Virus record (IMG/VR): IMGVR_UViG_3300027779_001411
Coordinates: 1-29,033 of that record
Length of the DNA stretch: 29,033 nt
Reading direction: 5' to 3' (one strand)
From: a virus
Position numbers and translations under genes: made by a program. How positions within the stretch are numbered: position 1 is the stretch's first letter; every line of letters begins with the position of its first letter. Below the pieces are notes generated by a model. It was not told the origin of the DNA. It ran no database searches and saw only the letters and a list, made by a program, of their open reading frames with translations. This document shows positions 12,644 to 27,245 of the stretch, piece after piece.

Positions 12644-14890
12644 CTAACAAAAGAAATAATCAGAGGAGATGATCTCAGATATATCTAATGACCCTAGCTC
12701 TGGTTGTTTAAGTTTATAACCCTCTCGGGTCTCTAATAGCATCTGCTCTATAGCAGTAAAGAAGTTATCACTGTTATACATCATAGCAAATTGCCACTTG
12801 GTGTGGTCTATCAATTTATTTATATCACATGCATGAGTTGAAAAGGAATCATGTATAGCTCCAAAGTCTCCAGAGAAACTCTGAACAACTTTAGCCATGT
12901 GAGCTGCGTCCATTGAATGGATAAAATTAGGTGAGCATCCAGATGCAAACGATCTCCTACACGGTAACAAGTTACCATTGGAAGTGATGTAAGGTATCTT
13001 AATGCTATGACCTATCTGACCAAGACCACGTATGGTACTGCGTACAGTGATGTTCTTCTGTCTCCACACTTCGTACAACACTGGGAATCCTGAAGGAGTT
13101 GTCCAACGTGTACATGTGTTACCTGATGACAGTATGTGGTCAGTCATCTTCTGTATAAACTTCATAGTTTTTAAGGGACCCACACAAGTATCATTGATTG
13201 AAAGTATAAGTTGTTTTGACAGAGAGGTACAGTCATCTTCTGTAATATTATACTCCGTGTCATACCCTTCAACCTTACAATCATAATACATGTTAGCTGC
13301 AATCTTCTTTTGACCAGCTGAGTAAGCCCTTGTCATTGACCCACGCTTTGCTATACCTTTTCGTATAGCTTTCATTGGCATGTTACGACCTTCAAACCAC
13401 TCAGGCATTCTCTCTGTAAGACGCTTGGCTACTTGGACATAGAAGTCCTTCTGTATCTTACTAGGTACTAGGGATACTAGTTCGCCAGCTTGCTTGTCTT
13501 TAGAGATAGCTGCCAGATGTTGCCATCCATTGTTACTCCCATCAACAGGGATAGGTAGTCTACTCATATGTACAGCACCTTCAAGTACGGAAGTGCCGTA
13601 CCCCTGAACATCTAAGCAACATGCAAGAAAGCTAACTGGTTTTTCTGCTTCTGTTCTGAAGCTCTGTCCATCCGCTAATTGGTTTATCCAAGTCAGGTTG
13701 TTTAGGGTCCACAACTCTCTGTCCTTTAGCGTCATCTTGTCTACTGAAATTGTGTATAATCCTTCGTCTTGAAGATAGGTTCGGTAGTCCGCTGTTACCC
13801 ATGTTGGTAGTTCCTCTATATCATAAGATTGATTATAAGAACAAGCTGTGTGTATGCATAGCCATCTGTACCCCTCGGTATCCATAGCTTTTGCATAAGC
13901 AAACTCAAAGAGTCCCTTGGATACATCAGAACCTTGGTAGTTTAAGAATGGTTCTGTGTAGTACACACGCCCACGATAGTCACACTCTACCATTTGATAG
14001 AAGTCACGTAGTCCTATGGCATGTACCTTAGCAATTACGAACTTCATCTCTATAGCTTTTGACTTAGCTTTTATAGACTGATCCTCAAGATCTATGAACA
14101 ACCCTAGGTTAGTCTCTAAAGCCTTGGCTACTGTACTGTTAAGCCTCCAAGGTGTCTGCTGCAGCTTGTTAAGAGCAGTAATAAAAGGTGCTCCTATAAG
14201 CTGCTTAAAGTCTTCCTCTGAACTCATACGTTTAATGTATGGCCTCTTGGTGAACTCATTACGCAGTGACACTATGTCTTTTGGAGGGGTGAATGACGTA
14301 CCTATAAGCGTACTCTTTATATACTCAGGGGGTAGGTCACCAAGGGTAGCCCATGTACTTAGTAACTTTATAATGTACGGTGCACGGAACCCTTCGTACT
14401 CCCTTTCAATATGTATATAACCAAGTTGAAAGAAAGCTTCTAGGTATAGGTCACCTACTGCAAGGATCTCCTGATGGTTAGTGTTTAGTACACCTAAAGC
14501 AGACAGCACCTGTAAGCCTATCACAGACGATGTAACGGTTAGTTTAAAGGGGTTTGATGATGACCTCCGGGACTTCTGATAAGCTGCCACAGCACCTGCT
14601 ACGGCCCTTACAGTGAGCTTCTCGTACGTGTATCCGTAGGGTATCATTGAAGATATTAATCTGGCCCCTTCCGGGGGCCTCCCACGAAATGAATTACCCT
14701 CACATCTTTCTTTTATGTACTCTGTTATACGCTCTACACCAGCAGAGTTATCCAGTGTACTCGAGGAAGTCCTCTTGTCCTCTGAGTCTGTTGGTTTTGG
14801 TATCGTAGTATGCTGATCCGCAGTCTCCAGTGCGTCCTGTGAATCGTGACTTAAGTACTCGGAGTTTAATTGTGTTTCGTTCATCTTCAT
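12644..14890 (-). CDS. T7-like single-subunit DNA-directed RNA polymerase
   Basis: 748 aa as drawn (T7 RNAP is 883 aa). Core motifs are clear: DYRGR (304-308, the DxxGR motif), motif A PIPVDGSNNGWQHLA with D450, motif B AKRGSMTRAYS with K515 and Y523, SPNFIHSMDAAHM (653-665), and motif C IHDSFST with H680 and D681. The C terminus (LDISEIISSDYFFC) matches the T7 foot. It transcribes phage DNA from its own promoters. The Arg of motif B is Lys511, and the usual YG is YS. The start is uncertain: ATG 14890 lies 143 bp inside the primase-helicase gene. The next in-frame ATG (residue 82, about 14647) would remove N-terminal-domain sequence, so I keep the long form. It lies near the end of its operon, unlike T7 gene 1, and is probably not the first polymerase to act. 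Confidence 0.93.
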   Translation of the reverse strand: MKMNETQLNSEYLSHDSQDALETADQHTTIPKPTDSEDKRTSSSTLDNSAGVERITEYIKERCEGNSFRGRPPEGARLISSMIPYGYTYEKLTVRAVAGAVAAYQKSRRSSSNPFKLTVTSSVIGLQVLSALGVLNTNHQEILAVGDLYLEAFFQLGYIHIEREYEGFRAPYIIKLLSTWATLGDLPPEYIKSTLIGTSFTPPKDIVSLRNEFTKRPYIKRMSSEEDFKQLIGAPFITALNKLQQTPWRLNSTVAKALETNLGLFIDLEDQSIKAKSKAIEMKFVIAKVHAIGLRDFYQMVECDYRGRVYYTEPFLNYQGSDVSKGLFEFAYAKAMDTEGYRWLCIHTACSYNQSYDIEELPTWVTADYRTYLQDEGLYTISVDKMTLKDRELWTLNNLTWINQLADGQSFRTEAEKPVSFLACCLDVQGYGTSVLEGAVHMSRLPIPVDGSNNGWQHLAAISKDKQAGELVSLVPSKIQKDFYVQVAKRLTERMPEWFEGRNMPMKAIRKGIAKRGSMTRAYSAGQKKIAANMYYDCKVEGYDTEYNITEDDCTSLSKQLILSINDTCVGPLKTMKFIQKMTDHILSSGNTCTRWTTPSGFPVLYEVWRQKNITVRSTIRGLGQIGHSIKIPYITSNGNLLPCRRSFASGCSPNFIHSMDAAHMAKVVQSFSGDFGAIHDSFSTHACDINKLIDHTKWQFAMMYNSDNFFTAIEQMLLETREGYKLKQPELGSLDISEIISSDYFFC

Positions 14891-16442: not shown

Positions 16443-16931
16443 TCAATCCGTTGTTGCTTTTTCTCCTTTGGTTTTAATAAGTAATCTTCCGCTTCTGTAG
16501 ATTTCGTCAAGTCTTGTTTTTGTTTCATTTGTTATTGCTTCTTTTGGAATGAATTTAACTGCACCTATTTGTCTGTTAAGGTACAGAGGTACACCCTCAG
16601 GGCATTTCTCTGTAAGAACATCTAAGTACCATTGAACTTTACATTCTGCTGCTGAGAGTCCTCCCCTTGTCTCAAACAATTGTATCATTTCATATGATAA
16701 CTCTGACCCATCTTCCTTTAGGTCATTAATATGTTTGGAGGAACTTGTGTACGACTTCCAGTTAGACTCCTTGTCTCTCTTAGTTTTCTTGTAAGAGTGG
16801 AACTGTTTCTTACCTACGTATCTGATTGGGTTACCGTCTGGTACAGATACAGTTATAAGATATATGAAACCAAAGTAATCGTCAACAACAAATGGATCTC
16901 CTTTGTAGTCCCAGTGTCCTAGATTAGCCAT
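16443..16931 (-). CDS. GIY-YIG-type endonuclease-like protein (SegE-like)
   Basis: 162 aa. GFIYLITV (21-28) followed by RYVGKKQF (37-44) corresponds to the two halves of the GIY-YIG nuclease signature. Downstream are NWKSYTSSSKHI and an AAEC segment with E96 that could be the catalytic metal-binding Glu. This layout resembles the T4 SegE-like group. Such proteins are either free-standing homing endonucleases or nucleases that act on host or branched DNA. The gene sits between the exonuclease-side genes and the primase-helicase and may take a T7 gp3-like role in host DNA breakdown, but a separate endonuclease VII-like gene is also present. AGGGGAG precedes ATG 16931, and the gene overlaps the end of the upstream gene by 13 bp. 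About 66 nt between it and the primase-helicase start show no clear signal. Confidence 0.65.
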   Translation of the reverse strand: MANLGHWDYKGDPFVVDDYFGFIYLITVSVPDGNPIRYVGKKQFHSYKKTKRDKESNWKSYTSSSKHINDLKEDGSELSYEMIQLFETRGGLSAAECKVQWYLDVLTEKCPEGVPLYLNRQIGAVKFIPKEAITNETKTRLDEIYRSGRLLIKTKGEKATTD

Positions 16932-23299: not shown

Positions 23300-23740
23300 T
23301 TATCTTGGTAGATTGCCTTTTATATATTTAATAGCTCTTTTCATACGAGGAACATTATCATTGAATCCACCTAATGCTCTGTTGCAACTATGACATAACC
23401 ACCCCCTGAACTCCTCAGTACTATGGTCATGGTCAAGAACCCATGCACCTGCAACACCGCCCCTACCTTCTGCCTGTGTTTCGTCACATAAGCATACGGG
23501 GCATTCATACCCATCAGGAGCCTGACCATGTATAGACTTAAGATACTTACGCACTTTACCAAGTTCATTGTTACATGATCTACACTCGGCTCTAAGATAA
23601 GTACCTCCACCTGATGGTCCAAAGTATGAAGTAGGCAGTTTGTTCTTACACTTGGAGCATATCTTTGTATCTTTACATGCAGGGTTTTCAGAGGATATCT
23701 TTATGTCCTCCATGAATAACTTCATTTGTTCATACTTCAT
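23300..23740 (-). CDS. Recombination endonuclease VII-like (HNH-fold) nuclease
   Basis: 146 aa from ATG 23740, which forms an ATGA overlap with the methyltransferase stop; a GTG at 23749 is less likely. The C-terminal half carries the endonuclease VII signature: C80-x-x-C83, LDHDHSTEEFRGWLC with D103 to H106, and CHSCNRALGGF with C116, C119 and N120. A zinc knuckle pair, C28/C31 and C53/C56, forms an extra N-terminal treble-clef-like region. T4 endonuclease VII resolves Holliday junctions and debranches DNA before packaging. This gene could fill the role of T7 gp3, although HNH proteins of this shape also act as homing or nicking enzymes. Confidence 0.82.
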   Translation of the reverse strand: MKYEQMKLFMEDIKISSENPACKDTKICSKCKNKLPTSYFGPSGGGTYLRAECRSCNNELGKVRKYLKSIHGQAPDGYECPVCLCDETQAEGRGGVAGAWVLDHDHSTEEFRGWLCHSCNRALGGFNDNVPRMKRAIKYIKGNLPR

Positions 23741-24462
23741 ACTGTACACACTAATTTCTTATTAGCTTGATATACTGCTTCTGCGAATCCCCTTGGAGTT
23801 GCTGAGCGTATGTTCTTTGTCTTCATTGATTTACCACCAAGCTTTCTATGTTGAGTGCTTGAGCCGTAACTTTCACAAGCTACTGGATCTTTTGCTGGCA
23901 TTGAAAAACCTCCACCTGTCCATAAGCATGTGTGTTTTGAGTATGCATCATTTGGTGCAATGTATTCTGGATACAGCGGGTGACATTCTTCACCTTCTTT
24001 GATGTAACCACCGTATTCATAGGGGTGGAACCTATAGTCGGGTTTTCTCCAAAGGGTTGACAGCACTGATACCGGGTTTTCTATGTAATACGGAACTTCA
24101 ATATCATTAAAGAGTTCATCGCACCACATTGCGTAACCTACTGCTTTTCTTTGAAACAATGGATCTATTAATGCTTTAGCTTTAAACCATGCTGCACCTG
24201 ACACTGCCATATCTGTGCATACAGGGAAAGCCATTGCAAATACAACATCATCATCTACGTCATCAAACTCATGCCATAGATTGTTTATTTCATGATAGTC
24301 GTGTAGATCTGCATTCAGATAGTGGATTGAACCTCCACTTTCATAATTGTCTATACGGGTATTGTCATGTTGTATATCATAGCAATAGCATGTATACCCT
24401 GCTTTTGCCCAAGGTACAACTGCAACACCTGTGTAATCATACAGTGACAGTACAATGCTCAT
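23737..24462 (-). CDS. DNA cytosine-5 methyltransferase-like protein
   Basis: 241 aa. Motif I (SAM binding) is recognisable in VLSLYDYTGVAVVPWAKAGY and CYCYDIQ. A motif IV-like block AMAFPVCTDMAVSGA carries the candidate nucleophile C82, and IENPVS (E128, N129) matches motif VI. The rest (FHPYEYGGY, HTCLWTGGGF, KLGGKSMKTKNIRSATPRGF) belongs to a phage methylase-like family. The canonical PCQ is PVC here, so the Cys is shifted by one residue. At 241 aa there is little room for a target-recognition domain. It may protect phage DNA from restriction or modify another base position; activity is not certain. It overlaps both neighbours by 4 bp. Confidence 0.72.
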   Translation of the reverse strand: MSIVLSLYDYTGVAVVPWAKAGYTCYCYDIQHDNTRIDNYESGGSIHYLNADLHDYHEINNLWHEFDDVDDDVVFAMAFPVCTDMAVSGAAWFKAKALIDPLFQRKAVGYAMWCDELFNDIEVPYYIENPVSVLSTLWRKPDYRFHPYEYGGYIKEGEECHPLYPEYIAPNDAYSKHTCLWTGGGFSMPAKDPVACESYGSSTQHRKLGGKSMKTKNIRSATPRGFAEAVYQANKKLVCTV

Positions 24463-25047: not shown

Positions 25048-25542
25048 TTAGTCTTTTACGACTTCACCTTCAATATCTTTAAGTGGTTTGAGGTTAGGCT
25101 CATTGATGATTGCAAGTTGTTGTGCCAGTTCTTCATCGGTTAGGTCTTCCAAGTTTATGTTTGTGTTGATGTTCTCGGTACGTTGCAGTTTAGGTTGTTG
25201 GTACTCAGCTATTGTTGCTGCAAGTTTTGAGGCTTCTGCAGGGTCACCGTCTTGGATAGCCCGGAGCATCATTATTTGCATTACAGTTAAGCCAGATGGC
25301 ATGTCGCTTATTACACCATCTGAAAGATACTTTAATATTTGTACAGTTTCTTTCATTTTCTCACGGGCTTCTTTATTAGATCTCCGCTTTTCAATGCTTT
25401 TACCTGACATCATCTTCATGTGTTCTTTATCCCATTTGGGTTTAAGGTTTGCAAGTGATGATTCTGTGATTGCTATCTTTGGTTTCTTTGTTAGGTTTTC
25501 AGGCTTTACTGTACCTTCCACGTACTTAACGTGATCTATCAT
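25048..25542 (-). CDS. Possible small terminase subunit (DNA-packaging) protein
   Basis: 164 aa. It has a basic, Lys-rich N-terminal half with MSGKSIEKRRSNKEAREK (45-62), then a predicted helix bundle. The block DPAEASKLAATIAEYQQPKLQR (100-121) and LEDLTDEELAQQL (131-143) resemble the C-terminal half of phage small terminases, where a helix ends in PKLQR before an acidic DLTDEEL tail. Such proteins form rings that recognise the phage DNA for packaging. The large subunit is not in this window. An alternative is a DNA-binding protein of other function. GGAG lies 8 nt before the ATG but sits inside a predicted RNA stem (25545-25603), so translation may be controlled. Confidence 0.5.
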   Translation of the reverse strand: MIDHVKYVEGTVKPENLTKKPKIAITESSLANLKPKWDKEHMKMMSGKSIEKRRSNKEAREKMKETVQILKYLSDGVISDMPSGLTVMQIMMLRAIQDGDPAEASKLAATIAEYQQPKLQRTENINTNINLEDLTDEELAQQLAIINEPNLKPLKDIEGEVVKD

Positions 25543-25544
25543 TT

Positions 25545-25603
25545 AGGTTACTCCATAGTTATTTAAGTTCTATAAGGTACTTAAAAGATCTAGAGAGTAA
25601 CCT
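25545..25603 (-). promoter_or_regulatory. RNA hairpin hiding the ribosome site of the TerS-like gene
   Basis: On the minus strand AGGTTACTC (25603-25595) pairs perfectly with GAGTAACCT (25553-25545). Inside, TTTAAGT (25585-25579) pairs with ACTTAAA (25568-25562) around a 10-nt loop, with near-symmetrical internal loops of 9 and 8 nt. The 3' outer arm covers three bases of GGAG (25554-25551), the only good ribosome site of the gene at 25542. This suggests a translational switch, or a transcript-processing or terminator-like structure in the 85-nt gap after the endolysin gene. Confidence 0.5.
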
Positions 25604-25627
25604 AGAGGTCAAGGCTCTTAAAATGGG

Positions 25628-26041
25628 TTATCTGTAAAAGATATGATCATCTATTGTGAACAATGTTGTCATCTCATGTGCCCAGTATGGGGTTTCAATC
25701 CATGTGGCATGATAGTGTGTGGCACCTAAACTTGTATCGGTTACTCTACCGTAATAGATGTTCTGTGCTAGTATTGTAGCCTCAAGCATAGCCTTACCAT
25801 TTGTAGGCTCGTCAGACATGCCATCACAAAACCAAGAATATTGGCAACGATGCCTTACGGGGTTCTCCATATCCCATGCATGGTACTTGGCTTGTTTTAC
25901 TACATCACATACATTGTCAGGGTATCGTTTATCTGACACCCTGTTCATTGTACTTAATCCTACAGCTATTTGACCTATTACGGGTTGATCTCTTGCTTCC
26001 CAATACAAATTTAAGGCTAGGCACATCACTGCAGCTATCAA
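25628..26041 (-). CDS. Cell wall hydrolase (SleB/Hydrolase_2 family), predicted endolysin
   Basis: 137 aa. The whole protein fits the SleB-type cell wall hydrolase domain: YWEARDQPVIGQIAVGLSTM (13-32) with the catalytic Glu15, NRVSDKRYPDNVCDVV, QYSWFCDG (67-74), GATHYHA (106-112) with paired His, and TIDDHIFYR at the C terminus. These enzymes cleave peptidoglycan and serve as endolysins in many marine phages. No signal peptide separates from the domain, so release would need a holin or similar. It overlaps the upstream small gene by 4 bp (ATGA) and lies in the leftward operon, not with the virion genes. Confidence 0.88.
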   Translation of the reverse strand: MIAAVMCLALNLYWEARDQPVIGQIAVGLSTMNRVSDKRYPDNVCDVVKQAKYHAWDMENPVRHRCQYSWFCDGMSDEPTNGKAMLEATILAQNIYYGRVTDTSLGATHYHATWIETPYWAHEMTTLFTIDDHIFYR

Positions 26042-26235
26042 TTTAACATCTCTACATCTTTATAATACCTGATGAACAGTTCTTGGTGTTTTGGTGTTGT
26101 ATTCTTATGTTTATGTATTTTCTGGAGACTACCAGCACCTCTTGCATATTGGTTGGGGTCATCAGAATACTGATAAGTCCAATCATGTGTTTTTAAGATA
26201 TTCTCGTATTCTTCAATATTCACTTGAACACTCAT
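26038..26235 (-). CDS. Small protein of unknown function
   Basis: 65 aa; GGAG precedes ATG 26235, and the stop overlaps the endolysin start. It is polar and rich in Tyr, His, Lys and Asn (THDWTYQYSDDPNQYARGAG), with a Lys/His segment (KIHKHKNTTPKHQE) that could bind nucleic acid. There is no membrane span, so it is an unlikely holin despite its position just before the endolysin. No family is recognised. Confidence 0.65.
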   Translation of the reverse strand: MSVQVNIEEYENILKTHDWTYQYSDDPNQYARGAGSLQKIHKHKNTTPKHQELFIRYYKDVEMLN

Positions 26236-27171: not shown

Positions 27172-27210
27172 TTGTTCCCTTTAGGTACTTCGGGTACATT
27201 CCTTTGTCAC

Positions 27211-27245
27211 TTGATTTAAAATAAAATGGGAGCCTTTCGGCCCCC
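27211..27245 (-). terminator. Intrinsic terminator after the SSB gene
   Basis: On the minus strand GGGGGCC-GAAA-GGCTCCC (27245-27228) forms a 7-bp stem (one G-U) with a stable GNRA tetraloop, followed by ATTTTATTTTAAAT. It starts 9 nt past the SSB stop codon. It would end or attenuate the RIIB-SSB transcript and separate it from the GP88-to-RNAP operon. Confidence 0.85.

Follow-up and report, generated by a model that had tools for sequence, protein, structure and literature searches.

The locus studied here raises the question of whether an RNA hairpin ahead of a TerS-like gene controls translation of that gene and, if so, on which RNA. In the window (the whole 29,033-nt stretch of viral DNA that was analysed), 85 nt separate the upstream stop codon (25628) from the start of the TerS-like gene, whose ATG lies at 25542. 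An earlier note had placed in this gap a stem that masks the ribosome-binding site. The pairing was confirmed on the minus strand: AGGTTACTC (25603-25595) pairs over 9 bp with GAGTAACCT (25553-25545), a 7-bp pair (UUUAAGU/ACUUAAA) is nested within this outer stem, and the Shine-Dalgarno (SD) sequence GGAG sits in the 3' arm. The outer pair is one T-A longer than had been claimed (25604/25544) and continues into a U-G (25594/25554), giving 10 Watson-Crick pairs plus one U-G. What had been overlooked is that the loop and inner stem are themselves a copy of a phage promoter-like element. The features of the locus are collected in Table 1.

Table 1. Coordinates of the leader, its elements and the genes discussed (positions refer to the window unless a record is named).
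Feature	Position	Strand	Remarks
Outer stem, 5' arm	25595..25604	(-)	TAGGTTACTC; upstream of the putative start 25570
Outer stem, 3' arm	25544..25553	(-)	GAGTAACCTA; overlaps SD
Inner stem, 5' arm TTTAAGT	25579..25585	(-)	inside promoter-like element
Inner stem, 3' arm ACTTAAA	25562..25568	(-)	putative initially transcribed bases
Shine-Dalgarno GGAG	25551..25554	(-)	sequence
Promoter-like element	25567..25589	(-)	ATCTTTTAAGTACCTTATA followed by GAAC, -19 to +4; putative start G 25570
Leader-specific conserved block	25589..25614	(-)	CCTTGACCTCTAGGTTACTCTCTAGA, -44 to -19; includes 5' arm
Gene under putative control	25048..25542	(-)	164 aa; TerS-like by context only
Upstream gene, cell wall hydrolase	25628..26041	(-)	Hydrolase_2, E 3e-19; ends 23 nt before 5' arm
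Intrinsic terminator-like site	27228..27245	(-)	upstream of gene run leading to hairpin
Single-subunit RNA polymerase	12644..14890	(-)	Pfam RNA_pol E 8e-53; 748 aa
rIIA variant of the element	G001:C1:46798-46822; G006:C1:22819-22843	(-); (+)	TAGCA type, 8 copies among 98 core sites

Inverted repeats of 9 perfect pairs, with 3-60 nt in the loop, are not rare in the window (3 found; mean of 7.0, s.d. 2.5, in 100 shuffles), so the inverted repeat alone is not significant window-wide. When RNA folding was checked, as the earlier note had proposed, the leader folded better than its shuffles at 79 nt (z -3.5, matched by 0 of 200) and at 64 nt (z -5.1, 0 of 200 as good), the latter stretch having been trimmed to fit the stem. 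A 108-nt leader gave z -2.5, with 5 of 200 shuffles as good, and the stretch from -45 to +28 around the promoter gave z -4.5, with 0 of 300 as good. The hairpin in the leader of the TerS-like gene is real. No Rfam match at gathering score was detected in the window, and no intrinsic terminator (a GC-rich stem followed by a T run) was found in 25400-26100.

Relatives of the 164-aa protein were collected from IMG/VR (21 loci, then 1, then 8 more). A DNA pattern search, for which TCTAGG was required and CCTAGA was not, returned 23 stretches, of which 15 lay on contigs not yet in the set and four (L197-L200) looked unrelated by eye. In an alignment of 14 leaders, from the window and 13 of the 21 loci, conservation peaked in the middle, AGTACCTTAWAGAAC, and not in the arms. 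This hairpin centre (ATCTTTTAAGTACCTTATAGAAC) is one copy of the promoter-like element. An exact 18-position scan of viral contigs gave 28 stretches, 21 of which were this leader; the seven found elsewhere looked unrelated on inspection by eye. Allowing two mismatches brought up clusters of near copies elsewhere in five of eight relatives' records. The 16-mer core (ATCTTTTAAGTACCTT) occurs 98 times in 70 viral-contig stretches: 42 sites are array-type (core then ATAG), 17 are leaders, 8 are rIIA-type (core then TAGCA), and the 31 others were judged unrelated by eye.

The element of the leader is common to the copies beside TerL. On the TerL strand, and some 0.25-0.6 kb ahead of that gene, one to four core copies were present in each of the nine records tested (G001, G004, G005, G006, G010, G012, L029, L040, and L048, with G004/L040 and G006/L029 being near-identical pairs; distances were obtained by subtraction). 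Portal and capsid genes lie downstream of these copies where the record extends that far, and three of the 35 core matches listed for these records lie elsewhere. The rIIA variant (AATCTTTTAAGTACCTTTAGCA) is one base shorter and, in G001 and G006, precedes rIIA by 18-20 nt; it is present in four of the nine records and is perhaps a weaker promoter class. As promoters of single-subunit polymerases do, the element repeats before several gene runs and is oriented towards the genes (TerL, the TerS-like gene, rIIA); it is a candidate promoter of this phage group's single-subunit polymerase.

The likeness between leader and array copies was also measured against chance. For the phage type of the window, array copies match a 25-base query exactly and leaders differ from it at 3-5 positions, compared with at least seven mismatches in shuffles (five per record). 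The G005 leader differs from its own array at 7 positions and by that count resembles the shuffles. Four phage types differ in the 9 bases before GTACCTT, and leaders agree best with the array of their own genome (27 of 36 positions, the top score among 24 pairings of the four types). The window record, a 29-kb fragment, holds the leader copy only, the arrays being seen in relatives. A 6-mismatch site at window position 14189 is coding sequence inside the polymerase gene. Two other candidates were set aside: a copy before the GP88 gene (AAGTACCTAAAGG, 27173-27197) is by eye part of a small ORF in L003, and the repeated 13-mers of Roseobacter phage CRP-7, at 42-45 kb, lie within an annotated putative tail protein gene. 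In G005 (C1:13483-13573, minus strand) four promoter copies stand head to tail, 24-28 bp apart, so that their starts may compete. The DNA around the TerL-side copies of G001 (C1:49905-50416) is rich in repeated GGGA/CCCT-type words, and no ORF of at least 60 aa starts between 49368 and 50568 of that record.

Promoters of T7 and SP6 end in TATA, with transcription beginning at the G that follows. By analogy, RNA would start here at G 25570, a position that falls in the hairpin loop. An RNA begun at that base lacks the 5' arm (25595-25604), so the stem would be formable only in read-through RNA. On such RNA, if it exists, both arms would be present, the stem would fold and hide the GGAG, and the TerS-like gene would be silent while other genes on the same molecule could still be translated. 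When the single-subunit polymerase is present and reads the element, transcription would start near 25570, within the loop; the resulting RNA, devoid of the 5' arm, would leave the GGAG free and the gene would be translated. The predicted cost of opening the stretch from SD to AUG in the window is 9.8 kcal/mol in read-through RNA vs 1.8 in promoter-initiated RNA, and the predicted probability that the GGAG is unpaired is 0.01 vs 0.57. When the SD alone is considered, 12.5% of fully shuffled upstream sequences mask it equally well in the window. The masking claimed earlier therefore holds by folding for RNA with both arms, but not for promoter-started RNA without the 5' arm. We regard the leader as probably a nested promoter-hairpin timer, in which masking would lower translation until the phage polymerase initiates inside the hairpin.

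Masking was compared across 26 distinct leaders among 33 loci (12 of the main clade, 14 outside it) with shuffles of the upstream part in which the promoter was kept. In nine of the 12 main-clade leaders (the window, L002, L003, L004, L009, L011, L013, L014, and L015), the predicted SD-AUG opening cost is 9.8-17.2 kcal/mol in read-through RNA vs 1.8-4.5 in promoter-initiated RNA, a difference equalled by no more than 2 of 300 upstream shuffles. The other three, L017-L019, mask weakly, with 13-28% of shuffles equally good. Outside the main clade, 11 of the 14 leaders were not significant: seven of these (L171, L175, L176, L202, L207, L214, and L217) were equalled by 14-46% of shuffles, and four (L020, L071, L203, and L213) had no masking in predicted folds. 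L021 was significant alone (7.2 vs 2.2 kcal/mol; 3.3% of shuffles). In two further leaders the SD is masked by a different helix, which is significant alone in L219 (9.7 vs 2.8; 2.7%) and near significance in L212 (7.9 vs 3.2; 7%). With one representative per type the combined p value was 0.0008; without the subclade of the window it was 0.09. The more distant leaders, with L020 as the exception, have the promoter enclosed in a TCTAGG/CCTAGA stem, but few of them mask the ribosome site. The pairing proposed in the earlier note is thus retained among close relatives, but in distant ones the hairpin is rewired and the SD often left uncovered.

These data bear on the possibility that the promoter alone matters, the palindrome being a by-product and the SD never usefully masked. 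We consider this unlikely, although the promoter element is the best-supported component and masking is missing or not significant in many relatives, because an upstream block specific to the leaders is strongly conserved and forms strong pairing with the SD region in nine of the 12 leaders of the main clade. From -45 to -19 the mean frequency of the majority base is 96% in 12 distinct leaders vs 48% in 22 array copies; this block, with the 5' arm, is conserved in leaders and missing from arrays, and the promoter alone therefore has no need of it. At the position of the inner-stem 3' arm, most array copies carry other sequence (e.g., GGAACACTA). Fold z values averaged -1.8 at 19 leader sites and -0.25 at 36 array sites (Mann-Whitney p 0.0008, a generous value as the sequences are related), but z exceeded -1.1 at 10 of the 19 leader sites, which speaks against the timer. 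The structure pairs 89.8% of cells, compared with 27-52% when it is slid.

Compensatory changes, which the earlier note had named as a check, gave the stem little support: one compensated pair, from U-A to G-C, was found (L017; L018 by eye). The covariation score was not exceptional (54 of 500 shuffles reach it), and a pair is broken in L011 and L013 and, by eye, in L019. Cognate arms had no clear advantage over swapped arms (1522 of 20000 permutations were as good; 74 of 120 in the distant set). The motif CCTTGAC (25608-25614, minus strand; -44 to -38) lies outside both the stem and the promoter and is conserved at 92-100% per position in the 12 leaders, with GCCTTAC similarly placed by eye in L021 and L071. 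A sigma70 promoter at the conserved TTGAC was rejected, since a scan gave no minus-strand site there.

An improbable alternative is RNase III-type processing of read-through RNA at the stem, between the hydrolase and the TerS-like gene. The structure is an irregular intergenic stem of about 21 bp in total, and several distant relatives have the TCTAGG/CCTAGA stem with little or no SD pairing; however, stem strength varies widely, and these 10 of 19 leaders (z above -1.1) fold little better than shuffles. Slightly less probable still is that the inverted repeat serves as a DNA operator on either side of the promoter, through which, for instance, the gene product could regulate its own gene: the core lies between TCTAGG and CCTAGA in all eight distinct second-group leaders (found by a search that demanded TCTAGG only) and in L021 and L071, but the half-site spacing varies by eye from 25-28 bp in the second group to about 40 bp between the window arms, L020 is without CCTAGA, and the outer sequence differs between clades.

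The genomic context bears on the nested promoter-hairpin timer as follows. With the hydrolase gene immediately upstream, some RNA must reach within 23 nt of the 5' arm. The terminator-like site above this gene run, which counts against the timer, should cut transcripts from further upstream, so RNA reaching the hairpin starts below that site or reads through it. A hairpin was seen by eye at the terminator-like place in nine of 10 readable distinct sequences (L014 was without it, and L009 was unreadable there). Between the leader and the polymerase, the long ORFs to which a function was assigned lie on the minus strand; the promoter could consequently also raise expression of the RNA polymerase itself, along with that of DNA polymerase and ribonucleotide reductase, and the hairpin would silence the first gene alone on read-through RNA. 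The single-subunit RNA polymerase, encoded on the strand of the promoter and 10.7 kb downstream of it, is the candidate reader. Its relatives are 63-92% identical in the three records holding it, its best-ranked named relative is that of CRP-7 (39% identical), and N4-like PHROGs also match it (phrog_2166, E 3e-27). Among the other genes identified, a GIY-YIG endonuclease like SegE (16443-16931, minus strand; Pfam E 8e-24) lies between the helicase-primase and DNA polymerase genes and is a possible homing gene, and a DNA methyltransferase (phrog_757, E 4e-72) is encoded at 23737-24462 on the minus strand.

The name of the controlled gene is based on context. A weak homologue in Roseobacter phage CRP-7 adjoins TerL (37% over 75 residues, E 4e-5) and is the sole support for the earlier designation TerS-like, which no family match above cut-off backed: PHROG profiles gave no TerS family at E 0.001, and Pfam and NCBIfam gave matches only below cut-off. 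The 164-aa protein had no match of note among PDB sequences. A model of it (pLDDT 60) had no fold match at E 0.001, and identification by fold was dropped, the model being too poor.

These results provide a candidate sequence for the polymerase promoter of a group of uncultured marine phages, which are distant relatives of CRP-7. A term search of the accessible text of two papers on CRP-type roseophages (PMC6918029, PMC12629253) gave no occurrence of "promoter." The literature search returned no report of a promoter of this class within such a hairpin in titles or abstract starts among the matches listed, subscription journals lying mostly outside its coverage. The element resembles T7/SP6-class promoters in its length of about 20 bp, the TATA-G end, strong copy-to-copy conservation, and repetition before late genes; it differs in reading ATCTTTTAAGTACCTTATAG. 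According to the part of PMC4496689 available to us, the T7 promoter spans -17 to +6; the element here spans about -19 to +1. In the same source, every promoter of the N4 virion polymerase has a short stem capped by a loop of 3 bases. Several main-type array copies (e.g., L081) recall this in folding TAAG-TAC-CTTA, with 4 pairs and a 3-base loop, inside the promoter, but the other promoter types keep by eye only about two Watson-Crick pairs before a mismatch.

Hairpins near ribosome sites have been described in other phages. The available portion of PMC2988022 reports for seg43(25) of Aeromonas phage 25 a stable hairpin that lies immediately before a ribosome site and leaves it uncovered; some distant relatives here also have a hairpin by an uncovered ribosome site, although that portion mentions no promoter inside the seg43(25) hairpin. 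The closest parallel is in T4, where the accessible parts of two papers (PMC3014915, PMC2988022) describe leaders of e, soc, 49, and I-TevI in which the SD or AUG lies in a helix on long RNA, and where RNA made from the late promoters of e and I-TevI lacks the helix's 5' portion and is translated. In the window and eight close leaders the SD or AUG is likewise predicted to be paired in the long RNA, and the 5' strand lies outside the promoter's RNA, given a start at 25570. The pairing is kept in close relatives, with weak covariation, and not in L020, L071, L203, and L213.

In the same partial texts, T4 e and I-TevI use the late promoter TATAAATA, read by host polymerase with a phage sigma factor. 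Here, unlike in T4, the element is T7/SP6-like, the phage has its own single-subunit polymerase, and the controlled gene is TerS-like, with replication genes among those that follow it in the run. With a hairpin instead of a terminator, one RNA could serve the replication genes while one gene is kept off. We tentatively propose, as a possibility short of an even chance, that a promoter-in-hairpin module combining the logic of T4 gene e with a T7/SP6-like promoter has an independent origin in these marine phages. It would prevent translation of a packaging gene from RNA on which the replication genes and the phage polymerase itself still have to be expressed; outside the clade of the window most leaders would keep the TCTAGG/CCTAGA frame, the masking helix having been rewired. 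By prediction, the leader shares the design of I-TevI and gene e of T4, though with another polymerase; this suggests that the T4 device, a gene hidden on early RNA and freed by a start within the hairpin, has evolved again.
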